In this document: positions 5,318 to 15,234 of the stretch, piece after piece
How the letters are laid out: each line of letters starts with the position of its first letter
Numbering within the stretch: the stretch's first letter is position 1
IMG/VR virus record: IMGVR_UViG_3300037189_005526
Location: 1-21,932 of that record
Length of the DNA stretch: 21,932 nt
Reading direction: 5' to 3' (one strand)
Source: a virus
Made by a program: the position numbers and the translations under genes
Notes under the pieces: generated by a model
The model's database searches: none
Seen by the model: the letters and a program-made list of their open reading frames with translations, nothing else
What the model was told of the DNA's origin: nothing

Positions 5318-5609
5318 TTGATAATTCCTCTATTAGCTCACCTAACAATGTTAGGTTATTTTCGTTGATTACGATTGTCCTGCCACCTGCATCTCGGATG
5401 CTCTGCATCTCTTTTTCTTGCAAGGCGGTTGGCTTGTTGTCACCTGCTTTACACTCTATGCCTAAGAATAATCCGTTGGCGCAACATATAATGTCAGGCA
5501 CACCACTACGCCCATACCCATGTGTTGCGGGGAAAAAGTAATATATGCCATGAGCCTTAAGTAGCTTAACGGCTCGGTCTTTAACTTTCTTTTCAGGGGT
5601 AAGTGCCAT
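5289..5609 (-). CDS. VRR-NUC domain nuclease
   Basis: A 106-residue stand-alone VRR-NUC protein. The diagnostic core is RSGVPDIICC (G36-V-P38-D39), then GLFLGIECK (E52-x-K54) and TALQEKEM (Q64), giving the D, ExK and Gln of a PD-(D/E)XK nuclease, followed by the AGGRTIVI strand. Stand-alone VRR-NUC proteins in phages are proposed to cut branched DNA such as Holliday junctions. The frame is open upstream to a TTG at 5642, but that codon lies inside a good -35 element and has no ribosome-binding site, so the start is placed at ATG 5609 (MALTPEKKVK). No Shine-Dalgarno is visible before this ATG; a promoter just upstream suggests a leaderless message. Its 3' end contains one 15-base palindrome coding for part of NLTLLG. 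Confidence 0.85.
   Translation of the reverse strand: MALTPEKKVKDRAVKLLKAHGIYYFFPATHGYGRSGVPDIICCANGLFLGIECKAGDNKPTALQEKEMQSIRDAGGRTIVINENNLTLLGELIEELSNEQRRTNIT
5341..5355. repeat. 15-base dispersed inverted repeat, copy 1
   Basis: Exact CCTAACAATGTTAGG: two 7-base arms around one central base. It lies in the end of the VRR-NUC coding sequence, about 24 bases before the start of the next leftward gene. Confidence 0.85.
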
Positions 5610-5826: not shown

Positions 5827-6282
5827 TTAGTCGGTAGTCAGCAACTCATTAGTTAAATACCATATTGCGGCTTTAATGTCTGCACGTTTGTTGTCGCTAT
5901 TGGCTCTAAAGATATGAGCTACTGCGCTACCTAGATTGAAGTTTAGCTTATAGTCGGCTATTAAATCAACTGCCTTTGTGTATTTTTCCGAATACTTAGG
6001 CATAATTTCTTCCTTGACTTGTGGCTTAACATCTGCTTTAACTTCTGCTTTAGCTTCTGTTGATTTACCTACTGCAATGCGTGTTGCTACTTCGGGTAAC
6101 TTAGCACCTGTACTTTGCGCGTCACGCATTAGTTTGCGTTGCTCATATACTATTGTTACGTTTACCTTAGCGCGTTCAGCAATTGTCTTAGGCGATAAGT
6201 CGGGGCGGGTAGCTAACATCTGTCTTACTCGCGCCGTTCTGTTAATCTTTTGTTTCTTAAATGTTGGTTGTGTCGTTGTCAT
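5827..6282 (-). CDS. HTH protein fused to DUF3310-like domain
   Basis: The start is set at ATG 6282 (MTTTQPTFKK), six bases after GGAG; the ATG at 6294 has no such site. The 151-residue product has three parts. Residues about 15-52 look like a helix-turn-helix (RVRQMLATRPDLSPKTIAER, then KVNVTIVYEQRKLM). Residues about 62-95 are an Ala/Lys/Glu/Val linker with repeats of the AEVKADVKPQVK kind. Residues about 99-146 read YTKAVDLIADYKLNFNLGSA, then a helix with HIFRA and KAAIWYLTNEL, the DUF3310 signature of a Gly followed by an Arg-Ala helix and a Lys-Ala-x-x-Tyr-Leu helix. The HTH half suggests DNA binding; DUF3310 has no proven activity. It overlaps the upstream ribbon-helix-helix gene by 26 bases. 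Confidence 0.6.
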   Translation of the reverse strand: MTTTQPTFKKQKINRTARVRQMLATRPDLSPKTIAERAKVNVTIVYEQRKLMRDAQSTGAKLPEVATRIAVGKSTEAKAEVKADVKPQVKEEIMPKYSEKYTKAVDLIADYKLNFNLGSAVAHIFRANSDNKRADIKAAIWYLTNELLTTD

Positions 6283-6439
6283 TTCGTTCTCCATTTAGGT
6301 TTGTAAAATCTTTTAATACAGCTCTGATTGTCGCTTGGATTTTAGTCGGGTAGTGTTTAACTAGGTAGTCATACACATCCTTATCAAGTCGCAAGCTAAT
6401 TAGTTTTAGTGATACATGGTTTGCTTTTTTACCTCTCAC
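6257..6439 (-). CDS. ribbon-helix-helix DNA-binding protein
   Basis: A 60-residue protein with the ribbon-helix-helix pattern: strand KLISLRL (12-18), helix A with DKDVYDYLVKH, and helix B with KIQATIRAVLKDF. This looks like the MetJ/Arc/BrnA group, whose dimers insert the strand into the DNA major groove and often repress their own operon at palindromes. No partner toxin gene (such as BrnT) is seen next to it. The start is GTG 6439, which overlaps the upstream stop as GTGA and has AAGGAG and a second AAAGGA before it. It is a reasonable candidate to bind the 15-base palindromes of this region, by inference only. Confidence 0.65.
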   Translation of the reverse strand: MRGKKANHVSLKLISLRLDKDVYDYLVKHYPTKIQATIRAVLKDFTNLNGERNDNDTTNI

Positions 6440-6609: not shown

Positions 6610-7498
6610 TCTGTCCTCCTTGCCTAACAATGTTAGGTAGCATATTGATAACAAACACATCCTCCTCGCATTTGAAACCCACGTTATCTATTGCTTCACC
6701 ATTGGCTACTAATTTAAGCATACCCACTTTAGTTTTGATTTCGGGCGTTACCTCATCACGATGGAATGAAACTGCGGGTGTATCTTTGAATGTAAAGTAA
6801 AACACATCGCCCATCAATGTCACCATACTAGCTCTACCCTCTGCGTATGCTTTCTCTAGTTCACTTGATTTGTCTTTTTCTTGCCATGCGGTTTCAAAGT
6901 TTTCAAGTCCATCAATACTCATTCCTGCACCCGCCGTAAACGCCCTAAACTCGGCAAGGTTTTCTCTGATATAAAGTAACATACCTTTATTCATGTTGCG
7001 CCATATGTCATGAAAGTTTTGTTGCTTTCTGTACCTATAATTACCTAATATATCTTTACCCCTAATAGTTATTTCTTTAACTAATTCCTTGTCAGTCTTA
7101 GGGAAAAACATTTTTGATACTAGCTTAAGAGCTTTCTTTAAGTCTTTTGTGCGCGTAACGCTACCACGTTGTCGCTCTTTCATGATGCGGTCATTAGTTA
7201 CAAAAAACCTATTCCCACCCCAATACTCTGCACCTAGCCTACCTAATATATCTTTACCTTGCGTTACAGTAAACTCGTATGCCCATAGTGAATCTACTTC
7301 ACTATATGTTCTGCCGTTATAATCTACGTTCTTATAGTCACGGCTAACGCTGTTTGGTGTGAATGTCCACGTTGGATGCCTCTTGGCAAGTTCCTCTACA
7401 AACATCATTGCGCTAGGTTTACCCTGCACTTGTAACGTTACCCTACTGCCATCGCGTAACTCTATTTCCTCGCTATGTAATTTGATATTAGCTAACAT
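6596..7498 (-). CDS. hypothetical protein (300 aa), MoxR/VWA operon
   Basis: A soluble 300-residue protein with no signal peptide or membrane segment. Features visible: an N-terminal beta-rich part (IKLHSEEIELRDGSRVTLQV), a central basic helical segment (KERQRGSVTRTKDLKKALKL, TDKELVKEITIRGKDILGNY) and a C-terminal part with VFYFTFKDTPAVSF and VFVINMLPNIV. The phrase GKDILG occurs twice, near residues 82 and 147. I do not recognise a family. It lies two genes downstream of the VWA/ATPase pair in the same transcription unit and may be its client or regulator, a context inference only. The ATG at 7498 overlaps the preceding small gene by 11 bases; its 3' end holds one 15-base palindrome read as PNIVR. 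Confidence 0.75.
   Translation of the reverse strand: MLANIKLHSEEIELRDGSRVTLQVQGKPSAMMFVEELAKRHPTWTFTPNSVSRDYKNVDYNGRTYSEVDSLWAYEFTVTQGKDILGRLGAEYWGGNRFFVTNDRIMKERQRGSVTRTKDLKKALKLVSKMFFPKTDKELVKEITIRGKDILGNYRYRKQQNFHDIWRNMNKGMLLYIRENLAEFRAFTAGAGMSIDGLENFETAWQEKDKSSELEKAYAEGRASMVTLMGDVFYFTFKDTPAVSFHRDEVTPEIKTKVGMLKLVANGEAIDNVGFKCEEDVFVINMLPNIVRQGGQSEAS
6623..6637. repeat. 15-base dispersed inverted repeat, copy 2
   Basis: Exact CCTAACAATGTTAGG within the last codons of the 300-residue gene, 14 bases before the GTG start of the next leftward gene. Confidence 0.85.
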
Positions 7499-7668: not shown

Positions 7669-8910
7669 TTAGTATTCCTCTCTCACATGAATTGTTTTAC
7701 CTATTGGTGCATATGTTTTCTTGTTACGCACGATAGTCCATAATACAGGCGCGTTCCAATTGTCCCCCCATCTGTCAATATAGCCGTCAGTTAAGATAAT
7801 GATTGCTTCGGGCTTAATACCTTTCTCTTGCATATAGTCAATCATACAAGTCGGGTTTGTACCACCACCACCTTTTGGCTTTGTTGAGCTAACAATGTTA
7901 GGCAATGTAGCCATGTCATATTCCTCATGCCCTGCAACTTCACTATCCCAATAAAACAAATCTACTTTTTCGGGATGCACTTCGGTTGCGATAGCTTGCA
8001 CCTCTGCCAAAAATTCTGATAGTTCCCTACCTTGAATAGAGCCACTCGTATCAATGCCGATAACTAAATGCCCTACACTCTCACCTACCATGCTAGGCAT
8101 ATACGTATCGGTTGATAAGTAACGGCGATTTACCCTACGCCAACTGCTTGCATCTTTAGCATTGCACGTAGCTTTAACAAACTCACGTAGTACCTCGCGC
8201 CAATCAACTTCGGGTTCTACCATCTCCTCCAATGCGCGGTCTAGCCCACCCCGCCCACTACCTGCTACCTTGTTATGTGCAATGATGCCCTGTCGTATAG
8301 CTTGGTCAATCTCTTTAGCAAGTGCGGTCTTTTCTGCCTCAGTAAGATTTTTACCACCATCCCAATCATGGTCATCCATACTGTTAGGCTCATCATCGCT
8401 ATCAGCAAAGATACCCTCGCGGTTCTCTTTGTCCTCTTTAAGTAAGTCAAACACTTGTTTGGTATTCATCCCGCGATACTTCTCATCAACATATCCAAGA
8501 GCCTTACCATCTTTCGTTGGCATTGCCATGAAACTCTCGTTCGAGTCTAAATCTTTCAATTGCAAGTTAATCACAAAGTCATTCGCTAGGTTGCATAGCT
8601 GTCTGTCTTGCTCGGCTAACTTACGCCATGTAGTGATATGCCTGTATGCTTTATGCAAAGTTTCATGTAATACTACGAACGTAAACTCTTTATCATCCAT
8701 ACCCTGCACAAACTTGCGCCCATAAAGCTCATCACGCCCATTGGTAGATGCCGTTGGTACATTCGGATTGTCTGTAATAGCGGTCTTACCCACTGTCATC
8801 AAGCCACTCCACAATGCAAACTTCGGGTTACGCATAATGCTAATCTTAATCTTACTAAGCCTACGTTCTTCTTTGTCACGTACTACTATTTCTGTTTGTT
8901 CAGCTAACAT
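7669..8910 (-). CDS. VWA domain / metallopeptidase-like protein (DUF2201 type)
   Basis: A 413-residue protein with two recognisable parts. The N-terminal part has H82-E-T-L-H86 (FTFVVLHETLHKAYRH), an HExxH zinc-peptidase signature, followed by a long helical and acidic linker (about 150-205). The C-terminal part is a von Willebrand A domain with the MIDAS motif D287-T-S-G-S291 (VIGIDTSGSI), a Gly/Thr segment (GGGGTNPT) near 347-354 and D375 in IIILTDGY. This matches the putative metallopeptidase plus VWA-like arrangement called DUF2201. Such proteins typically work with a MoxR-type AAA+ ATPase, and one is encoded directly upstream. In bacteria these pairs remodel or insert cofactors into client complexes; the phage client is unknown. 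The ATG lies in an imperfect copy of the 15-base palindrome. Confidence 0.85.
   Translation of the reverse strand: MLAEQTEIVVRDKEERRLSKIKISIMRNPKFALWSGLMTVGKTAITDNPNVPTASTNGRDELYGRKFVQGMDDKEFTFVVLHETLHKAYRHITTWRKLAEQDRQLCNLANDFVINLQLKDLDSNESFMAMPTKDGKALGYVDEKYRGMNTKQVFDLLKEDKENREGIFADSDDEPNSMDDHDWDGGKNLTEAEKTALAKEIDQAIRQGIIAHNKVAGSGRGGLDRALEEMVEPEVDWREVLREFVKATCNAKDASSWRRVNRRYLSTDTYMPSMVGESVGHLVIGIDTSGSIQGRELSEFLAEVQAIATEVHPEKVDLFYWDSEVAGHEEYDMATLPNIVSSTKPKGGGGTNPTCMIDYMQEKGIKPEAIIILTDGYIDRWGDNWNAPVLWTIVRNKKTYAPIGKTIHVREEY
7888..7902. repeat. 15-base dispersed inverted repeat, copy 3 (one mismatch)
   Basis: GCTAACAATGTTAGG, one difference from the consensus, inside the VWA gene where it is read in part as LPNIV. 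This is the only near-full copy in the middle of a large gene. Confidence 0.65.
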
Positions 8911-8917
8911 TGTTAGT
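8903..8917. repeat. 15-base dispersed inverted repeat, copy 4 (two mismatches)
   Basis: GCTAACATTGTTAGT; the two outer bases differ from consensus while the inner 13 are kept. The start codon of the VWA gene (8910) lies at its centre. Confidence 0.6.
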
Positions 8918-8922
8918 TCTCC

Positions 8923-9990
8923 TTAAAGTAAGTCCTCGTTCTTTTGTACCCAATCAGCAAATTTGCTACTGCTAAATGCAATTGATTGCTTGGTCGGGTT
9001 CTTGGCAATGTTGATTGCAAAACACGCTTGCCATTCGGGTTCAAAGCGTTCTAGGTAGTCCATAAAGTTACCAATGCTTTCTTTAGTAACACTAGCGATT
9101 GCACCAAAAATCATAATTGCACTAGCCCCTGCGCTATCGGGTACACGCGCGGTTTTAGGGTTCTTAACCACATTCTCGAACGGCTCTAATTGGTCTGAAT
9201 AGTCAATGTACGCTTGCATATCACGTGATGCACTCTCACCGATTGCGCCACTCATAGCACATATCAATGTGTCCATATCAATCTTACTGCGTACCTTAAC
9301 AATCTCACTTACACGCTCTAAGCTACGTGGGGATACGAACGCGGTCTGTACCTTTTTTGGATTGTAGATATACGGATTTTCTTGTTGGTCACCCTCTAGG
9401 TAACTCGCTAACGCATGAGGGAATTGTCGTACCCAAGCTAACACTTCGGGCGCGATACCATTATTCATTGCCCACTCAATCCACTCCTCCGCGTTCGGCT
9501 TGCGTACTGTTAGCGGGATGATACGATTTCTACTATGCGCTTTAAGGTTGTCACCTAGTCCATCACTTCCTAAGTTACCTGTTAAAAAGATAATGCTCTT
9601 AGGGTTGACTGATATATCACCCAAGCGCGGGTTAGCTACCTCAAGTAAGGGGTGCAACATATTTTTTACAGGTTCAGCACCTTTGGTAAACTCATCTAAC
9701 ATTGTTATAACAGGGTTGCCTGTATGTACCTTAAAGCGTGAGTTCGGATAGTATGCCGTTGTCTTATTCTCATGATTGATAACAGGCATTGCAATGTCAC
9801 CTAAGTCCATGTTAGGCACATCAAGGTATGCCACTTCATGATTTGGCAATTGTGCCGATAATGTTTTAAGTAATGATGATTTGCCTATACCCGCTTCACC
9901 TTGCAACAGGTATCTATTCATCGGTGTTGCTAAAATCAATTGTGCCGCTTGCGCTAGTGTTACTGTCTTACCAAAATTTAATTCAGCCAT
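8923..9990 (-). CDS. MoxR-type AAA+ ATPase
   Basis: A 355-residue AAA+ protein. Walker A is G31-EAGIG-K37-S38, Walker B is ITMLDEF with D99-E100, sensor 1 is in IIFLTGN (N139), and arginines R153/R155 after LKAHSR could serve as the finger; a lid-like helical region follows (SPRSLERVSEIVK). The shape and the Walker B sequence place it with the MoxR group, chaperone ATPases that act on VWA-domain partners. The VWA/HEXXH gene lies only 12 bases downstream, so the two are very likely one functional unit. ATG 9990 has AAGGA seven bases before it, and a palindrome-controlled promoter (10042-10070) stands in front, making this the first gene of a leftward transcription unit. Confidence 0.9.
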   Translation of the reverse strand: MAELNFGKTVTLAQAAQLILATPMNRYLLQGEAGIGKSSLLKTLSAQLPNHEVAYLDVPNMDLGDIAMPVINHENKTTAYYPNSRFKVHTGNPVITMLDEFTKGAEPVKNMLHPLLEVANPRLGDISVNPKSIIFLTGNLGSDGLGDNLKAHSRNRIIPLTVRKPNAEEWIEWAMNNGIAPEVLAWVRQFPHALASYLEGDQQENPYIYNPKKVQTAFVSPRSLERVSEIVKVRSKIDMDTLICAMSGAIGESASRDMQAYIDYSDQLEPFENVVKNPKTARVPDSAGASAIMIFGAIASVTKESIGNFMDYLERFEPEWQACFAINIAKNPTKQSIAFSSSKFADWVQKNEDLL

Positions 9991-10037: not shown

Positions 10038-10058
10038 TAACATTGTATTACAATGTTA
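10038..10058. promoter_or_regulatory. 21-base palindromic operator over the -10 of promoter P1
   Basis: TAACATTGTA, one central base, then TACAATGTTA: a perfect 10-1-10 inverted repeat. It covers the TACAAT -10 (10042-10047) and reaches into the spacer, so a protein bound here would block RNA polymerase. Each half contains ACAWTGT, the core of the 15-base dispersed palindrome. Confidence 0.65.
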
Positions 10059-10070
10059 TAAATAAGTCAA
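10042..10070 (-). promoter_or_regulatory. leftward promoter P1, upstream of MoxR/VWA operon
   Basis: On the minus strand TTGACT (10065-10070), a 17-base spacer, and TACAAT (10042-10047). A GACCAAA box lies four bases upstream of the -35 (10075-10081), and a 15-base palindrome lies beyond it (10086-10100). Transcription would begin near 10035, leaving a leader of about 45 bases before ATG 9990. The same order of elements recurs at 14286-14325 and largely at 12927-12967. Confidence 0.75.
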
Positions 10071-10085
10071 CTGCTTTGGTCATTG

Positions 10086-10100
10086 CCTAACAATGTTAGG
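10086..10100. repeat. 15-base dispersed inverted repeat, copy 5
   Basis: Exact CCTAACAATGTTAGG, extending to GCC...GGC at 10085-10101. It spans the stop codon of the 311-residue gene and lies 15 bases upstream of the -35 of P1, a typical operator or activator position. Confidence 0.85.
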
Positions 10101-11031
10101 CTTTATTATAAAAATCCCACAAACCACTAAAATACGCACCATAGGTATCGCGCTTGGCTCTGCCATTATCCGTTACGTTCGCATTAAAATACTCATCGCG
10201 GTATAAGCCCATAAGCACCCTATCAAAATCACGTATTAAACTATCCGCGCGGATAATAAACCCGCTTGTATTCCAATCGTACTTGCCAAAGCTATGCACC
10301 ATTATCAACATTGCTTTGTAATACCCATCAAATCTATCCTCGCTTTTGTCGGATATGTATTCCTTAAATTTTGCTATGTTATTTATAAATTCTTTTCCAT
10401 CATCGTGTAAGTGATTAAAGTGCCTAATACGCCCAAAGTCCACGTTGTATAGTTCTCTGCCTAATTGGTTAGTCAGTTCCTCGCGAGTAAAAGCCTCTGC
10501 CCCACGTAACTTAGCCATACCATCCATGTATTGCATGAAGTCGCTATGCCTTGCGCGGATTGCTTTTGTGTTTTCGCGGTTGATTGTATGCGTGACTTCG
10601 GGCTTGCTATCTAAAAAGTGATAGTTTCCATCATCCCCGCGCTTAATAAATAAACTCTCGCTACGCCTAAGTCGTTGGTCTACGCCACCTATGCCAATGA
10701 TTAAGCTATGGTCAAAGATATATGCGTTCACCTCTCTGCGTAGCACATCCCATATAAAGTTTGCCGTTGAAGTAGTGTTATATGAATAATTCTTAACCTC
10801 TACCCGCCCATCTTTATAAAAGGTAACAACAGGTTGTGCGTACATAATGCACTCAATAGCATCATCAGCATCGCGCTTTTTAATCATGTACCACGTATTG
10901 CGTCTATGCCCTAGCGGTCTATCATCGGTTGCCCGTCTGCGAATAGGTTTAGTTTCCTCCCATTGCTTTAGTGCTTCAGCATAATTGTTAATCTTATTGA
11001 TACCCGAATTTCTACTGTGTCCATATGGCAT
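10096..11031 (-). CDS. hypothetical phage protein (311 aa)
   Basis: A soluble 311-residue protein. The N-terminal third has RPLGHRRNTWYMIKKRD, then CIMYAQPVVTFYKDGRVEV and NTTSTANFIWDVLR; a strand pair ending in Asp-Gly-Arg followed by a Thr/Ser-rich turn is a pattern I associate with phage proteins of unknown function. The rest is largely helical and charged, with an Arg-rich region near 125-131 (DQRLRRSES) and a C-terminal DTYGAYFSGLWDFYNKA. AAGGAA stands eight bases before ATG 11031. It is the last gene of a leftward unit; its stop overlaps a 15-base palindrome and the next promoter follows directly. No enzyme motif is seen. Confidence 0.7.
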   Translation of the reverse strand: MPYGHSRNSGINKINNYAEALKQWEETKPIRRRATDDRPLGHRRNTWYMIKKRDADDAIECIMYAQPVVTFYKDGRVEVKNYSYNTTSTANFIWDVLRREVNAYIFDHSLIIGIGGVDQRLRRSESLFIKRGDDGNYHFLDSKPEVTHTINRENTKAIRARHSDFMQYMDGMAKLRGAEAFTREELTNQLGRELYNVDFGRIRHFNHLHDDGKEFINNIAKFKEYISDKSEDRFDGYYKAMLIMVHSFGKYDWNTSGFIIRADSLIRDFDRVLMGLYRDEYFNANVTDNGRAKRDTYGAYFSGLWDFYNKA

Positions 11032-11041
11032 GATATTTTCC

Positions 11042-11173
11042 TTAATGAAAAAGTTTTAATTGTCTTGCTCTGTGTCTTACTGTTAATAACTCCATCGCCC
11101 TGCCCTCTGATAAGCACTCAATGTATGCCTTAATCCATTTAATAAATACCCTACCGCGTTCTGCTTTGCTCAT
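11042..11173 (-). CDS. hypothetical basic small protein (43 aa)
   Basis: A 43-codon frame from ATG 11173 to TAA 11042-11044, filling the space between two accepted genes. It overlaps the 3' end of the upstream gene by 23 bases, with AAAGGA upstream, and its stop is ten bases before the next ATG. The product MSKAERGRVFIKWIKAYIE continues to a basic end with VRHRARQLKLFH, predicted as one or two amphipathic helices. No function is recognised; its basic charge could suit nucleic acid binding. Confidence 0.5.
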   Translation of the reverse strand: MSKAERGRVFIKWIKAYIECLSEGRAMELLTVRHRARQLKLFH

Positions 11174-11336
11174 GCCATATTCCTTTCATCACTTGGTTGT
11201 ATGCTTCTACTTCATCCTTTGCGAATATTGCATATGTCTGCCTTTCAGTTTTTGCAAAGCTATCCCATATCTCTTGGTCTAACATTACATAAAATGAAGT
11301 GCTACTTCTGCGCCATATCTTTTCAATCTTTGCCAT
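11151..11336 (-). CDS. hypothetical protein (61 aa)
   Basis: The start is placed at ATG 11336 (MAKIEKIWRRSSTSFYVM), which overlaps the end of the upstream gene by 14 bases; the longer frame to 11393 would overlap it much further. The protein has a beta-hairpin-like first half and a helical second half (AKDEVEAYNQVMKGIWHEQ). No family is recognised. Like its neighbours it belongs to the short-gene cluster driven from promoter P2. Confidence 0.55.
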   Translation of the reverse strand: MAKIEKIWRRSSTSFYVMLDQEIWDSFAKTERQTYAIFAKDEVEAYNQVMKGIWHEQSRTR

Positions 11337-11544
11337 ATTGCACATCCAACATTCTCTGCGTTGTTGCCCATGCACTAAGTTCATCATCAGCAAGTATGTG
11401 TGTATAGCTTCGGTCTTTTCTTACTATTACAAAATCATCATCTGTCGGTCTGTCAAACGTTACATAGTAAAAATGCCTGTTGCCCCCAAACATCGCTTTC
11501 CCATCACGTTCTACCCTAACAATGTTAGGCTTATTTGTTTTCAT
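11323..11544 (-). CDS. hypothetical protein (73 aa)
   Basis: Starts at ATG 11544 or the adjacent GTG 11547, both within the end of the upstream gene. The product is beta-rich at first (KPNIVRVERDGKAM, HFYYVTFDRP), then has a helix (ADDELSAWATTQRMLD). Codons 6-10 (PNIVR) are encoded by an exact 15-base palindrome, which suggests the site, not the peptide, is under selection. No function is recognised. Confidence 0.6.
   Translation of the reverse strand: MKTNKPNIVRVERDGKAMFGGNRHFYYVTFDRPTDDDFVIVRKDRSYTHILADDELSAWATTQRMLDVQYGKD
11515..11529. repeat. 15-base dispersed inverted repeat, copy 6
   Basis: Exact CCTAACAATGTTAGG, just inside the start of the 73-residue gene and directly after the stop of the upstream gene. 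Confidence 0.85.
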
Positions 11545-11818
11545 CACCGCCCCTTAGTAACTTAGCTATGTCTTTCTTAGCGATAGCGCAAGCCAATACC
11601 TCTTGCGGGAATTGTGCACCCATCTTTTCAGCAAGGTTAGCTACGAAAGCCAACTGCGCTTCTTTGTATTTCTTTTGGCTAGGCACTAACGCCATTGCGC
11701 TTGCATAGTTCATCCACGCAATGAGTATCCGTTGCTTTACGCTAGGTTGTACCTGTACCACTTGCATTTTAGGTTCTGGGGCTAATGTTGCTTTTCGCTT
11801 TCGCTTAATCTCTGCCAT
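11531..11818 (-). CDS. hypothetical basic protein (95 aa)
   Basis: A 95-residue protein with a strongly basic start (MAEIKRKRKATLAPEPKM), a Val/Gln stretch, and then helices with many alanines (IAWMNYASAMALVPSQKKY, QEVLACAIAKKDIAKLLRG). The basic tail suggests contact with DNA, RNA or an acidic partner, but no domain is recognised. ATG 11818 follows the upstream stop by one base and its 3' end overlaps the next start, so it is coupled on both sides. Confidence 0.65.
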   Translation of the reverse strand: MAEIKRKRKATLAPEPKMQVVQVQPSVKQRILIAWMNYASAMALVPSQKKYKEAQLAFVANLAEKMGAQFPQEVLACAIAKKDIAKLLRGGDENK

Positions 11819-11819
11819 G

Positions 11820-12074
11820 TTAGCTCATACTCCTAGCAAGTAACGCCTTGTTTAGTGAAGGCGCATAAAGTCGCTTCTTATAGCCACGCCCAATGTTTAG
11901 GCTCTTGTAATAGAATAGGGCGTTCGCAAAGTCACCTGTAAAAGTCCACTTGGTTTTGTAACTGCTTCGGTCTTTGCCTATCTGCACCATGAATACAGTC
12001 TTGTTAGTAAACGCGAGATACTCACCATTGAATGTCACGCTCTTATGAATTGTCTTGTTGTTTGCTTCACTCAT
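11820..12074 (-). CDS. hypothetical protein (84 aa)
   Basis: An 84-residue protein with repeated beta-strand-like segments (HKSVTFNGEYLAFTNKTVFM, then SSYKTKWTFTGDFANALFYY) and a basic C-terminus (GRGYKKRLYAPSLNKALL). The start ATG 12074 overlaps the upstream stop by eight bases. Many aromatic and Lys residues suggest a small beta-sheet nucleic-acid-binding or inhibitor protein, but this is a guess from composition; no family is recognised. Confidence 0.65.
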   Translation of the reverse strand: MSEANNKTIHKSVTFNGEYLAFTNKTVFMVQIGKDRSSYKTKWTFTGDFANALFYYKSLNIGRGYKKRLYAPSLNKALLARSMS

Positions 12075-12222
12075 CTCTTAACCCTTTTTTTAATAACTCA
12101 ATTGCTTCTTGATTTGGATTGTCACCTAGCATCAGTACGTACAATGCTTTCTTGATGTCGTTAATCAGCTCATTATCTGCATCACTAATAACATCGTCTA
12201 ACATCACCTCGTTCTTATTCAT
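12067..12222 (-). CDS. hypothetical acidic protein (51 aa)
   Basis: The start is ATG 12222 (MNKNEVMLDDVISDADNEL), which overlaps the stop of the upstream gene in an ATGAATAA junction; the longer frame to 12270 would intrude into that gene. The 51-residue product is acidic and helical, ending NPNQEAIELLKKGLRDE. No function is recognised. Confidence 0.55.
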   Translation of the reverse strand: MNKNEVMLDDVISDADNELINDIKKALYVLMLGDNPNQEAIELLKKGLRDE

Positions 12223-12394
12223 CCTGTACCTCCATGTCTTGCATCTCTGTATCAATAAAGTTAAACGCATCCTCTATCCACTTATCAAGGTTGACTAACA
12301 TTGTTAGGTTCTTGCACTCTAACGCCTTGCGTGTAGCTTCCTCGCTACTCTCTGCCCATAGGTCGTACTCATCACGTTCAATAGATGTATTCAT
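12215..12394 (-). CDS. hypothetical acidic protein (59 aa)
   Basis: A 59-codon frame from ATG 12394 to TAA 12215-12217, overlapping genes on both sides by 17 and 8 bases. A GGAGG stands about ten bases before the ATG. The product is acidic (MNTSIERDEYDLWAESSEEA, then WIEDAFNFIDTEMQDMEVQDE). It contains a near-perfect 15-base palindrome encoding NLTML. No family is recognised; acidic small proteins are sometimes phage inhibitors of host proteins, which is only a general possibility here. Confidence 0.6.
   Translation of the reverse strand: MNTSIERDEYDLWAESSEEATRKALECKNLTMLVNLDKWIEDAFNFIDTEMQDMEVQDE
12294..12308. repeat. 15-base dispersed inverted repeat, copy 7 (one mismatch)
   Basis: ACTAACATTGTTAGG inside the 59-residue acidic gene; the first base differs from consensus. 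Confidence 0.7.
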
Positions 12395-12488
12395 TGCTCA
12401 ATCCTCCACATACAACAAAAATAAAATAAACAAACAAACCAATTGCACATACCCACGCTATTAGCGCATCCCATTTATCAGCGTTCAT
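12378..12488 (-). CDS. single-pass membrane miniprotein (36 aa)
   Basis: The start is ATG 12488, with AGGTGG upstream and two bases after the stop of the preceding gene; the longer frame to 12569 lies in the wrong frame of that gene and is discarded. The product MNADKWDALIAWVCAIGLFV continues with YFIFVVCGG and ends LSNEYIY. Residues about 8-29 form one hydrophobic segment, so a single-pass inner-membrane protein is predicted. The role is unknown. Confidence 0.55.
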   Translation of the reverse strand: MNADKWDALIAWVCAIGLFVYFIFVVCGGLSNEYIY

Positions 12489-12490
12489 GA

Positions 12491-12826
12491 TTATTCCACC
12501 TCTCTTAGTTTGTATTCTACGAACCCGCCCTTGCGTATCATGTCTTTCATCTCTTGCGTTCCCATCCAAAAACTAACATCATCGGGGCGTGTCTTACTTT
12601 GTTGCCTTGTTGTCGTAACTGAATACTTATCGTTGTTGCCTATCCATTTACCGATTGCATAGTCATACACATACATTGGGAAGTGATAGCCGTATGAATA
12701 AACCACGTACATATTTTCTCTTGCTTCACTAAATACTGAGCCGTTCCGTGTCTGTGGATTGCGTACAAAAAATTGTCTACGCCCATTTACTTCTTTTCTT
12801 GCATTGCTTAATGTTGTTGCACTCAT
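12491..12826 (-). CDS. hypothetical phage protein (111 aa)
   Basis: First gene of the leftward unit driven by promoter P2. The 111-residue product has a basic start (ARKEVNGRRQFFVRNPQT), an aromatic central part (NMYVVYSYGYHFPMYVYD), the phrase GKWIGNNDKYSVTTTRQQSK and a C-terminal KDMIRKGGFVEYKL. The Tyr-rich strand followed by Lys-Tyr-Ser-Val-Thr-Thr and a basic run is a pattern I recall from small phage proteins of unknown function. ATG 12826 has AAAGG about nine bases upstream, and a 15-base palindrome lies 25 bases before it. Confidence 0.7.
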   Translation of the reverse strand: MSATTLSNARKEVNGRRQFFVRNPQTRNGSVFSEARENMYVVYSYGYHFPMYVYDYAIGKWIGNNDKYSVTTTRQQSKTRPDDVSFWMGTQEMKDMIRKGGFVEYKLREVE

Positions 12827-12850
12827 GATATTTTTACCTTTCGTATGTTG

Positions 12851-12865
12851 CCTAACATTGTTAGG
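12851..12865. repeat. 15-base dispersed inverted repeat, copy 8
   Basis: Exact CCTAACATTGTTAGG, extending to GCC...GGC at 12850-12866, between promoter P2 and ATG 12826, hence in the mRNA leader and downstream of the promoter. Confidence 0.85.
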
Positions 12866-12926
12866 CGGGTTAGTGTTACGTTTTGTTTTATAGTATGTTG
12901 CTTGCTTGATTTCATACTATGGTTCT

Positions 12927-12955
12927 ATTGTATTACAATGTTAGAATAAATGCAA
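12927..12955 (-). promoter_or_regulatory. leftward promoter P2
   Basis: On the minus strand TTGCAT (12950-12955), a 17-base spacer, and TACAAT (12927-12932). The -10 lies in a 6-1-6 palindrome, ATTGTA-T-TACAAT (12927-12939). A GACCAAA box lies five bases upstream of the -35 (12961-12967), inside the 35-base repeat. Transcription would begin near 12920 and serve the genes from 12826 leftward. Confidence 0.7.
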
Positions 12956-12957
12956 GT

Positions 12958-12992
12958 GGTTTTGGTCGTGTAATACAATGTAAGTGACTAAA
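12958..12992. repeat. 35-base direct repeat, copy A
   Basis: A 35-base sequence repeated exactly at 13065-13099. It includes the GACCAAA box (minus strand) and GTAATACAATGTAAG, so it carries both elements that recur at the leftward promoters. Confidence 0.85.
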
Positions 12993-13064
12993 GATTGCGA
13001 GTTTATTTTTTAGCGTAAAACTAAACTAATAGTGTAGAAAGAAAGAAAAAAATAAACTACAAGG

Positions 13065-13099
13065 GGTTTTGGTCGTGTAATACAATGTAAGTGACTAAA
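13065..13099. repeat. 35-base direct repeat, copy B
   Basis: Exact second copy of 12958-12992, 107 bases to the right. A TTGTAG lies five bases beyond its GACCAAA box, as at P2, but no good -10 stands 17 bases further, so it may be a decayed promoter or a pure binding site. Confidence 0.8.
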
Positions 13100-13374
13100 T
13101 ATAATCTTACGTTGTAATACGTTGTAAGGAAAAAGTGTATTGTAAGAATTTTATTTTGGTTTTCTTACATTAGTTCTTACAATATAAAACCGCGTGGCTC
13201 TAGGTTAAGATTAAGTTTTTAAGTGTAATGTAAGAATGTAAGAGAGAAAAAAGAGTATATCTATGTAGCGTTCTTTTTCTTGCCGTATTGCTCGTATTAC
13301 GTGCTAATAATTTTATGCGCTTTCAAAATTATAAGTTTTCTTACAATAGCCCGCAAACCCATTGAAAATTCGTT

Positions 13375-13480
13375 AAGTCATTGATTTAATGTGTAAGATT
13401 TCAAAAACAGGTTTTCTTACAATACAAGCTAAGTCATTGATTATGTTACGTAAGATTTTTTCAGTTTTCTTACAATACAA
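13375..13480. repeat. imperfect 56-base tandem repeat with TTTTCTTACAATACAA
   Basis: Two units begin AAGTCATTGATT at 13375 and 13431 and both end in TTTTCTTACAATACAA, with GTAAGATTT between. A third CTTACAATACAA follows at about 13489, and related copies occur near 13170 and 13338, so the units look like iterons. Confidence 0.75.
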
Positions 13481-13506
13481 AATAAAAGTCTTACAATACA
13501 AAAAAG

Positions 13507-13602
13507 CCCCTCGCGTCTGTGAAAACTATCATTTTGGCAAAATGATGAAACGCCTTAAACAAAATCCCCTCGCGTCTGTAAGAACTATCATTTTGGCAAA
13601 AT
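13507..13602. repeat. 37-base direct repeat pair with inner palindrome
   Basis: Copies at 13507-13543 and 13566-13602 match at 35 of 37 bases and are offset by 59. The first contains the 9-1-9 palindrome ATCATTTTG-G-CAAAATGAT (13528-13546). The second has a different symmetry, TCATTTTGG and CCAAAATGA at 13588-13596 and 13603-13611. No T-run follows, so these look more like protein-binding or RNA-structure elements than terminators. Confidence 0.75.
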
Positions 13603-13617
13603 CCAAAATGAGAAAAG

Positions 13618-13632
13618 CCTAACAATGTTAGG
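13618..13632. repeat. 15-base dispersed inverted repeat, copy 9
   Basis: Exact CCTAACAATGTTAGG, extending to GCC...GGC at 13617-13633, directly beyond the T-run of the terminator. Confidence 0.85.
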
Positions 13633-13634
13633 CA

Positions 13635-13658
13635 ATAAAAAACCCGCCGAAGCGGGTT
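13635..13658 (-). terminator. intrinsic terminator of the 13676-14221 gene
   Basis: On the minus strand AACCCGC, a TTCG tetraloop, GCGGGTT, then a run of T (TTTTTTATT with the stem end). The hairpin is at 13641-13658 and starts 18 bases after the stop of the early gene. The UUCG loop makes it very stable. It should insulate the early gene from everything downstream. Confidence 0.9.
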
Positions 13659-13675
13659 TGGTTTGGTGAGGGGGA

Positions 13676-14221
13676 TTATCCTAGCATTGTCACATTGACA
13701 CCCAAACACGCCAACGCTTGGGTAATATGTTTTTGCGCCTCAACAATTTTGGTGTCAAGGTTTTCCTGTTTGGAATTGAATTTCCAAAGCGTGGTTAATT
13801 CCTCAACATTGCGCAACATTGCGCCACGTGCTGGGCTTGTTGCCTCGCCTGTATCGCCCTCGCCCTCGCCCTCGCCTGTATCGCCCTCTGATTTTTCGGG
13901 TTCGCCGTAACGCTCAACCTTACCAAAGTTACAAACCCTTTTCCAAACCACGCTTGGGTTCGTGTGGTTCGCCTCGTTCAATACTTTATAAAATGCTTTC
14001 TTTTCCGCGAGTACAGGCTTTGCCTCATCGCTTTGGTCTGAGTGCTCAATATCAAACCAATCAATACCGAACGCGCCGTTAAGCAATACTGAGTATTCAC
14101 GCATTGCGCCGTATCCGCGAACCAAACTATTCGCCACCTCATTACGCGCCGTTGATAACGCGCTTTCTAACAATGATACTGTTGGTTCGGTTGTTGCTGT
14201 TGCTGTTGTTTTCTTAGTCAT
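13676..14221 (-). CDS. hypothetical early protein (181 aa) with acidic repeat
   Basis: The start is ATG 14221 (MTKKTTATATTEPTVSLLES), with AAAGG upstream; the frame continues to 14239 through a TTG, which is less likely. The protein has a Thr/Ala-rich N-terminus, a helical region (ALSTARNEVANSLVRGYGAM), a segment NHTNPSVVWKRVCNFGK, then an acidic low-complexity linker (GDTGEGEGEGDTGE) coded by a short DNA repeat, and a C-terminal helical part (LRNVEELTTLWKFN and KHITQALACLGVNV). No family is recognised. It is the gene nearest the divergent control region, with a dedicated promoter (P3) and its own strong terminator, so it is probably made early and in quantity, for instance as a host-takeover or DNA-binding protein. 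That role is inferred from position only. Confidence 0.7.
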   Translation of the reverse strand: MTKKTTATATTEPTVSLLESALSTARNEVANSLVRGYGAMREYSVLLNGAFGIDWFDIEHSDQSDEAKPVLAEKKAFYKVLNEANHTNPSVVWKRVCNFGKVERYGEPEKSEGDTGEGEGEGDTGEATSPARGAMLRNVEELTTLWKFNSKQENLDTKIVEAQKHITQALACLGVNVTMLG

Positions 14222-14285
14222 GATAATGTAACCTTTCAAAGTGTACTCGTTGGGTATGCAATGTGCCCGCCGTCAACTTAAGTAC

Positions 14286-14314
14286 ATTGTAGATGAACTT
14301 TGTAATACAGTCAA
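14286..14314 (-). promoter_or_regulatory. leftward promoter P3
   Basis: On the minus strand TTGACT (14309-14314), a 17-base spacer, and TACAAT (14286-14291). A GACCAAA box lies four bases upstream (14319-14325), and a 15-base palindrome beyond it (14333-14347), the same order as P1. Transcription would begin near 14279 and the leader is about 60 bases before ATG 14221. Confidence 0.75.
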
Positions 14315-14332
14315 CAACTTTGGTCGCAATAG

Positions 14333-14347
14333 CCTAACATTGTTAGG
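14333..14347. repeat. 15-base dispersed inverted repeat, copy 10
   Basis: Exact CCTAACATTGTTAGG, 18 bases upstream of the -35 of P3. It is the rightmost copy; none occurs in the rightward structural genes. Confidence 0.85.
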
Positions 14348-14563: not shown

Positions 14564-14591
14564 TTGACACTTTATATTTGTATGCTATATT
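14564..14591 (+). promoter_or_regulatory. candidate rightward promoter of the structural operon
   Basis: TTGACA (14564-14569), a 16-base spacer and TATATT (14586-14591) on the plus strand; the -35 is a perfect consensus match. Transcription would begin near 14598, about 31 bases before ATG 14629. It lacks the GACCAAA box and the palindromes of the leftward promoters, so the two directions may be regulated separately. Confidence 0.6.
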
Positions 14592-14628: not shown

Positions 14629-15234
14629 ATGATTGTTAAAGTAGAACCAACAAAAGACCACAAAATCCCCTACGACATCCAAGATGATGAGACGGAAACG
14701 TACATTGACGAGCTAAAAGTCGTTGCCAACACCCAAGATTTGCTAGAACAGCTTAACGGCCCACCCGAAATGGACACCGAGACAGCAGTTAAATCCGCCA
14801 AACTACTTGAGCAGTCCCTAAAAACTCACGATAAAAAGGCCCTAGGCACCGAAGCGGTGGCATATGGTGCAAAAGGATTCCTCCAGGCATACAGTAAACG
14901 GCTTGCATTCGATATGAATGACGTGCGAACCGCGCTTACACAGAAGTTATTAGAGCTTGCAAACTGTGGGGATGCTAGATTTGAGCTAAAAGCCATTGAG
15001 TTATTGGGTAAACATAGCGATATTGCCCTATTTACCGAGCGTTCTGAGGTCACAGTCAACTATAAAACCTCATCTGACCTAGAAAATGCAATCAAAGAGC
15101 GTATAAAACGCCTACTTAACGCAGATATTGTAGATGTAACCCCTCTGGATAGTGCCTCACTAGATGATATGCTAGGTGTTGCGGTAGTAAAACCACGTGA
15201 AACTGAGGAAGGAGACGTGGTTGACGAAGAATAG
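14629..15234 (+). CDS. terS: terminase small subunit
   Basis: A 201-residue protein directly upstream of the large terminase. The middle reads AYGAKGFLQAYSKRLAFDMN, then a helix with ALTQKLLELANCGDARFELK and the phrase KAIELLGKHSDIALFTERSE, which I associate with phage small terminase subunits that recognise phage DNA and present it to the large subunit. An N-terminal acidic part (DIQDDETETYIDELK) and an acidic tail ending EEGDVVDEE flank it. The ATG at 14629 has only a weak purine run before it. The large-subunit start lies within its final codons, suggesting coupled translation. Its rather long N-terminal part before the core may hold the DNA-binding region. Confidence 0.75.
   Translation: MIVKVEPTKDHKIPYDIQDDETETYIDELKVVANTQDLLEQLNGPPEMDTETAVKSAKLLEQSLKTHDKKALGTEAVAYGAKGFLQAYSKRLAFDMNDVRTALTQKLLELANCGDARFELKAIELLGKHSDIALFTERSEVTVNYKTSSDLENAIKERIKRLLNADIVDVTPLDSASLDDMLGVAVVKPRETEEGDVVDEE

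Follow-up and report, generated by a model that had tools for sequence, protein, structure and literature searches.

Are the early genes of an uncultured phage set to a common level or time, and through which sites in its DNA? The question is raised by a stretch of 21,932 nucleotides (nt), positions 1 to 21,932 of the IMG/VR virus record IMGVR_UViG_3300037189_005526 (the window), in which three leftward promoters, here called P1, P2 and P3, resemble one another in fine detail. A reading made earlier from the letters of the window (the sequence-only reading) proposed that they form one regulon, activated through a GACCAAA box ahead of each -35 hexamer. The analysis described here leads us to favour, with moderate confidence, an account in which the early promoters come under two shared controls: an upstream dyad, of which the box is one arm, and a palindrome of 15 base pairs (bp) dispersed through the early region.

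All three promoters lie on the minus strand and have a 17-nt spacer. P1 (10042-10070; TTGACT at 10070-10065, TACAAT at 10047-10042) would drive the genes for a MoxR-like ATPase and a VWA protein, and has its box at 10081-10075, 4 nt upstream of the -35. P2 (12927-12955; TTGCAT at 12955-12950, TACAAT at 12932-12927) would drive a cluster of small genes, with its box 5 nt upstream of the -35 at 12967-12961. P3 (14286-14314; TTGACT at 14314-14309, TACAAT at 14291-14286) would drive the first early gene, and its box, at 14325-14319, is again 4 nt upstream of the -35. This design is just as the sequence-only reading described it. The composite GACCAAA-N3-5-TTG-N20-TAYAAT occurs at three sites in the window, precisely P1, P2 and P3, and in none of 400 dinucleotide shuffles; the bare pattern TTG-N20-TACAAT is found four times compared with 0.5 in shuffles, and GACCAAA alone nine times with 3.2 expected. 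The hexamers of P1 and P3 match the consensus at 10 of 12 positions, around a 17-nt spacer. As part of the same favoured account, and held with the same confidence as the whole, all three are predicted to be strong early promoters of the host sigma70 type.

At P2, a second arm that the sequence-only reading had not described, TTTAGTC, lies at 12992-12986 on the minus strand. It is separated from the box by 18 nt, which equals 8 plus one helical turn of 10. Relatives were collected via moxR, a family encoded by hundreds of IMG/VR contigs, giving about 118 distinct promoters whose spacer is 17 nt long; the sampling was exploratory, many tests were run and the relatives are not independent, and all counts below are to be read in that light. 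An orthologous promoter, equivalent to P1, is present upstream of moxR in these relatives. In part of them, the GACCAAA position forms the right, promoter-proximal arm of an inverted repeat, TTTNGTC-N8-GACNAAA, with 4 nt between this arm and the -35, and matches in relatives to TTTNGTC-N5-22-GACNAAA mostly have a gap of 8 followed by N2-AC-TTGAC or something near it. The dyad with a gap of 8 at exactly 4 nt from the -35 occurs in 10 of the roughly 118 promoters, and the 18-nt gap of P2 in the window recurs in two loci (L314 and L317). Inverted repeats are found at both P1 and P2 in nine loci (L170, L263, L278, L286, L293, L351, L354, L359 and L360). When all offsets were considered, 13 gap-8 pairs matched at 6 or more of the 7 positions, whereas exchanging right arms among the promoters gave 3.2 (at most 8 in 300 exchanges); the arms thus fit their own partners and not merely a common consensus. 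In a separate scan of IMG/VR for GACCAAA together with a promoter, the matches listed are, by a rough estimate, mostly due to chance, and their count is not used as evidence.

Sites of this kind invite another explanation, in which no dedicated factor exists and the CCAAA or A-rich stretch is a proximal UP element, contacted by the alpha subunit of RNA polymerase, on which strong promoters have converged. The box lies at the location of the proximal UP subsite, and CCAAAAAAC stands directly before the -35 in many relatives. However, an inverted left arm at a fixed gap of 8 (or 18) is not accounted for in this way, nor are the matching changes in the two arms, for example TTTAGTC-N8-GACTAAA, TCTAGTC-N8-GACTAGA and TTTGGTC-N18-GACCGAA, nor a genome-specific sequence common to P1 and P2. 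Furthermore, among promoters sampled by their core only, GACNAA stands at the box position in 9 of 34 from palindrome-bearing contigs but in 0 of 81 similar promoters from other viral contigs. We consider the UP element an unlikely explanation.

Further evidence for a dyad-binding factor comes from comparing P1 and P2 within genomes. Over the 27 nt upstream of the -35 in 40 non-redundant genomes, the two promoters agree at 13.4 positions when taken from the same genome and at 10.7 when partners are permuted (z 8.8). The excess is largest over the 3-11 nt ahead of the -35; it declines at the left-arm positions, is small further out (z about 2) and vanishes at -76 to -102; the leaders show a weaker same-genome effect (z 3-4). 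Promoters were chosen by a score on the core hexamers and the extended -10, which leaves the upstream 27 nt outside the selection, so the concerted evolution is not a circular result, whereas conservation of the core partly is. Differences in genome composition can add to same-genome similarity, and are disfavoured as its whole cause because the similarity drops so steeply with distance. The likeness of the P1 and P2 boxes therefore makes it probable that the two promoters share a trans-acting factor.

Copying of one upstream region onto the other, by recent duplication or gene conversion and with no functional meaning, could give a similar picture. Such copying does happen in the window: the upstream block of P2 has a second copy at 13055-13102 on the minus strand, 92% identical and shifted by 107 nt, with GACCAAA at 13068-13074 and TTTAGTC at 13093-13099 and without a good -10. 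The focus of the P1/P2 similarity on a few positions next to the -35 is difficult to reconcile with copied blocks, as is the better match of arms to their own partners than to the arms of other promoters, and we regard this explanation as quite improbable.

P3 does not belong to the same pattern. The relatives' promoter of this class stands about 1.3-1.5 kb upstream of P2 and has a palindrome and an AT-rich element, TTTATTGTT, ahead of it in place of the dyad; sharing of the box by P3 is thus specific to this phage within the set of genomes compared. The proposed regulon of three promoters is accordingly best narrowed to two, P1 and P2, which concerted evolution and the presence of dyads at both link through the box, with P3 joined to them in this phage only.

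Several observations weigh against a general dyad-binding factor shared by the early promoters. A recognisable dyad is absent from most relatives, only 21 of 112 loci reaching arm pairs of 6 out of 7, and P1 and P3 of the window carry a single arm, the left arm of P1 not being found. The closest moxR relative (L134, with a 96% identical protein) has GACTATA, not GACCAAA, at P1 while its core is kept. The likeness of P1 and P2 within a genome might, in addition, stem from gene conversion between them.

Assuming that transcription begins 7 nt downstream of the -10, one would place the right arm at about -46 to -40 and the centre of the gap-8 dyad near -50. Because the right arm spans these positions, a factor that contacts RNA polymerase and activates is the likelier arrangement, with repression possible. 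The earlier suggestion that the box is where an activator binds, and that a phage factor may recognise it, thus holds to the extent that the box is a conserved regulatory element placed where regulators act; activation by the factor stays a prediction, and its coding by the phage is plausible. In a competing explanation, a host transcription factor binds the dyad, so that promoter activity would reflect the state of the host, and one phage would differ from another as their hosts do. This would fit with the lack of clear co-variation between the box and any phage protein (r about 0.2-0.33 for the P3 product and 0.27 for VWA) and of any candidate binder that stood out, and hosts may differ between phages. 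Gene families enriched in genomes with the dyad were mostly lineage-specific or open reading frames in the wrong frame. However, versions of the box vary among relatives whose gene content is alike, yet the two promoters of one genome keep matching boxes, and no host factor with such a site could be named; we consider a host factor unlikely.

Proteins with sigma region 4 were considered as the box factor and set aside: they and the dyad hardly ever occur together (1 of 29 compared with 20 of 83, the loci not being independent), and a PF04545 search of this phage identified no sigma region-4 protein. Where they do occur, they are small, stand-alone fragments of sigma70 region 4.2 (PF04545) of 50-66 amino acids (aa), encoded between moxR and VWA in L137 (9065-9241), L144 (9038-9232), L318 (7387-7539) and some 20-25 other loci; L138, L333 and L360 have longer sigma-like proteins of about 200 aa.

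The second element is the 15-bp palindrome, CTAACA-N-TGTTAG, of which the window has 10 copies. One, CCTAACAATGTTAGG, lies upstream of P1 at 10086-10100 and another upstream of P3 at 14333-14347, the two placements that the sequence-only reading had described, with distances from box to palindrome of 4 nt at P1 and 7 nt at P3 in place of the 7-10 it gave. About eight copies lie away from P1 and P3 and were not part of that reading. A copy in the leader of P2 (12851-12865), followed after about 26 nt by the first start codon, has the position usual in relatives; a copy at 5341-5355 is 25 nt before a start codon; and others lie at 6623, 7888, 8903, 11515, 12294 and 13618, with a half-broken copy at 9696. 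In the copy at 8903-8917 the start codon of VWA is itself part of the palindrome (CTAACA-ATG-TTAG), an overlap that recurs in relatives with a peak at -10 to -1. The 63-kb record of which the window is a part likewise yielded 10 copies, and the remainder of that record seems to be without any; most related records have 10-24 near-exact copies, usually in leaders or a little ahead of ribosome sites. Named phages with a similar terminase (HTVC027P, DSL-LC04 and 023Pt_psg01) have no repeated palindrome in the stretches examined.

The palindrome cannot be regarded as part of the upstream promoter design. In relatives it falls 27-83 nt after the -10 in 44 of 53 P1 and 40 of 50 P2 promoters, and it is dispersed through the early region as a separate element. 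A set of 697 copies avoids coding sequence (34% compared with 74%); most marked is a cluster of copies 10-39 nt ahead of start codons, and a further peak comes from palindromes that, as in VWA, have a start codon within them. When promoters were sampled by core only, a leader palindrome was present in 29 of 34 family members and in 0 of 81 others.

Short inverted repeats just before start codons, which score as short hairpins, could be RNA structures that act as terminators, stabilisers of mRNA or controls of translation, rather than operators. The variation between copies distinguishes the two. In single-mismatch copies TAAC and GTTA are nearly invariant, and the outer C is changed to A 63 times and its mirror G to T 57 times, changes that break the pair and are tolerated about equally. 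Changes that keep a G-U pair number 2, compared with 14 for their mirror images. The mirror-symmetric variants and the scarcity of G-U-keeping changes together show that the palindrome is read as double-stranded DNA, not as RNA; the G-U-tolerant, strand-specific pattern of a hairpin or intrinsic terminator was not seen. The length of the centre and the sequence of the arms vary from genome to genome but are mostly constant inside each one, a few genomes mixing classes: the centre has one base in most genomes, two in about 20 and none in L187, and alternative arms are ATAACA, GTAACA and CTGACA. This constancy and the 34% of copies in coding sequence also argue against RNA hairpins, which we consider very improbable.

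A factor bound to the palindrome may also touch the promoter core. This is suggested by TAAC half-sites before the -10 in the spacers of relatives' P1 and P2 (13 of 34, compared with 4 of 81 in others) and by a perfect 19-bp palindrome in the window, AACATTGTAATACAATGTT, at 10039-10057, which covers the -10 of P1, contains near-copies of the TAACA half-site and had escaped the sequence-only reading.

A candidate for this factor is the product of the first gene after P3 (13676-14221 on the minus strand), a helical protein of about 181 aa (AlphaFold model with a predicted local distance difference test score, pLDDT, of 82), which probably binds the palindrome, CTAACANTGTTAG. It is proposed because the class of palindrome co-varies with this protein: after removal of moxR distance the correlation is r 0.49-0.58 (p<0.002, with few two-base-centre genomes in the sample), the only strong co-variation with palindrome class among about 20 protein families. 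A homologue is present in 64 of 66 covered palindrome-bearing loci. Two results count against the proposal. The tree of the P3 protein still calls for 5 or more changes of spacing class, compared with 7 on moxR and 6 on VWA, and a reduction this small makes the link modest. Structure searches with the P3 product model of the PDB and of a viral library returned nothing significant and no DNA-binding fold.

The other protein examined as a palindrome binder was a one-copy ribbon-helix-helix (RHH) protein (window 6257-6439), antitoxin-type and BrnA-like (best member 3.1e-5), beside which no toxin gene was identified. In its AlphaFold model two helices come after an extended stretch, and structural comparison gave weak matches to ParD2 (Foldseek E 4.7; VIA Z 3.7, root-mean-square deviation 3.8 over 45 residues). 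The protein is universal (14 of 14 long related records), but its divergence does not track palindrome class (r -0.2), and it is the less favoured candidate. A further DNA-binding candidate in the window is the protein encoded at 5827-6294, with a possible N-terminal helix-turn-helix and a C-terminal domain resembling the DUF3310 type.

From these sites we infer the binding proteins, the sign of their effects and their order in time, as follows. Host RNA polymerase would read P3, P2 and P1 early. A regulator whose specificity drifts between phages would bind TTTNGTC-N8-GACNAAA, or a version one helical turn longer, or a single arm, and would set P1 (moxR and VWA), P2 (small genes) and here also P3 to a common level or time. 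The palindrome, [AC]TAACA-N-TGTTA[GT], would serve as a double-stranded DNA operator, most likely repressing or blocking early transcription. As the P3 product builds up, it would occupy the palindromes by P3, in leaders and at gene junctions, and early transcription, its own included, would be lowered. The fullest version of this model couples a fast-evolving dyad regulator, common to the early promoters, with a symmetric, stoperator-like array. The first early protein, as the founder of a new DNA-binding family, would bind this array and shut early transcription from leaders and junctions in a large uncultured lineage with no integrase found; this version we put forward only tentatively. Within the collection of papers searched, no description of such a two-switch system was found. 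If true, a common uncultured phage group would have a readable regulatory code, with genome-specific versions of the sites, a candidate regulator, and natural co-variation from which specificity can be learned. Stoperator-like control would exist outside temperate actinobacteriophages, and phages whose hosts are unknown would offer promoters and operators that can be tested.

The setting of these sites is a phage of roughly 63 kb; the window proteins tested are identical to those of a 63-kb IMG/VR contig. Early genes run leftward, in the order first early gene, small genes, moxR, VWA, RHH, nuclease and DNA polymerase, and the terminase, portal-region and later genes rightward. The moxR-like gene (8923-9990 on the minus strand, downstream of P1; Pfam AAA_5, PHROG 1297) is followed by VWA (DUF2201; 7669-8910 on the minus strand). 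Among named phages moxR has distant relatives alone, 20-26% identical among the matches listed, and a search of genome contigs gave one distant match, from which the host is not assignable. A tyrosine integrase (PF00589) was found in 0 of 14 related records of 59-74 kb, which may be fragments, other lysogeny modules being outside the search. In 80 of 91 relatives a four-cysteine protein family is encoded just downstream of P2 (for example, L153 4534-4743, L145 5090-5308 and L143 4839-5039), weakly similar to DksA/TraR (phrog_54, 3.9e-5 for L153); no member was found in the window. About 11 TGTAAGA/TCTTACA boxes (13141-13583) occupy non-coding DNA that separates the first early gene from P2; this array, which has similar counterparts in L355 (2822-3187) and L356 (6157-6504), may be a replication origin or a regulator array. 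Beside it, at 13497-13602, are two 47-nt repeats, 89% identical and 59 nt apart (CCCCTCGCGTCTGT...ACTATCATTTTGGCAAAAT), with an inner hairpin. A strong rightward promoter-like sequence, TTGACA-N16-TATATT with TG before the -10, lies at 14564-14591, just ahead of a rightward gene at 14629.

How does this arrangement compare with known systems? Late promoters of phages P2 and P4 have a two-fold symmetric upstream site, TGT-N12-ACA, bound by the small phage activators Ogr and Delta. Several promoters here likewise share a site of two-fold symmetry that keeps a fixed spacing from the core on its upstream side, with both arms at P2 of the window and one at P1 and P3. Here, however, the promoters are early ones with a good -35, and the half-sites are GTC and GAC 8 nt apart. 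Extended -10 promoters (TGn or TRTGn) are a known sigma70 class, to which the relatives' P1 and P2 cores (TTGACW-N12-TGTGN-TATAAT) are similar, whereas the TG is lost in P1 and P2 of the window (TGTAA-TACAAT). The palindromes have different counterparts. In phage L5 and cluster A, stoperators are asymmetric 13-mers, bound by the immunity repressor of a temperate phage as a monomer and oriented with transcription, at more than 20 sites in promoters and short intergenic spaces, where they are proposed to block initiation and elongation (PMC9283540). Here, too, a single site recurs many times in such places, but the copies are palindromic, number 10-24 per genome in most records, were seen in the early region and belong to phages in which no integrase was found (14 records, possibly fragments). 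KorB operators of plasmid RK2 lie near or far from their target promoters as a shared silencer (PMC11790492). The palindromes are similar in being beside or distant from promoters; the site sequence is unlike, and a ParB-family protein (PF02195) was found in 0 of 14 related records, which may be fragments. By this comparison the system falls outside L5 stoperators, because those sites are asymmetric and oriented, and outside KorB proper, because no ParB was found; it would nonetheless work much as shared-dyad phage promoters do, and as stoperators or KorB operators do.

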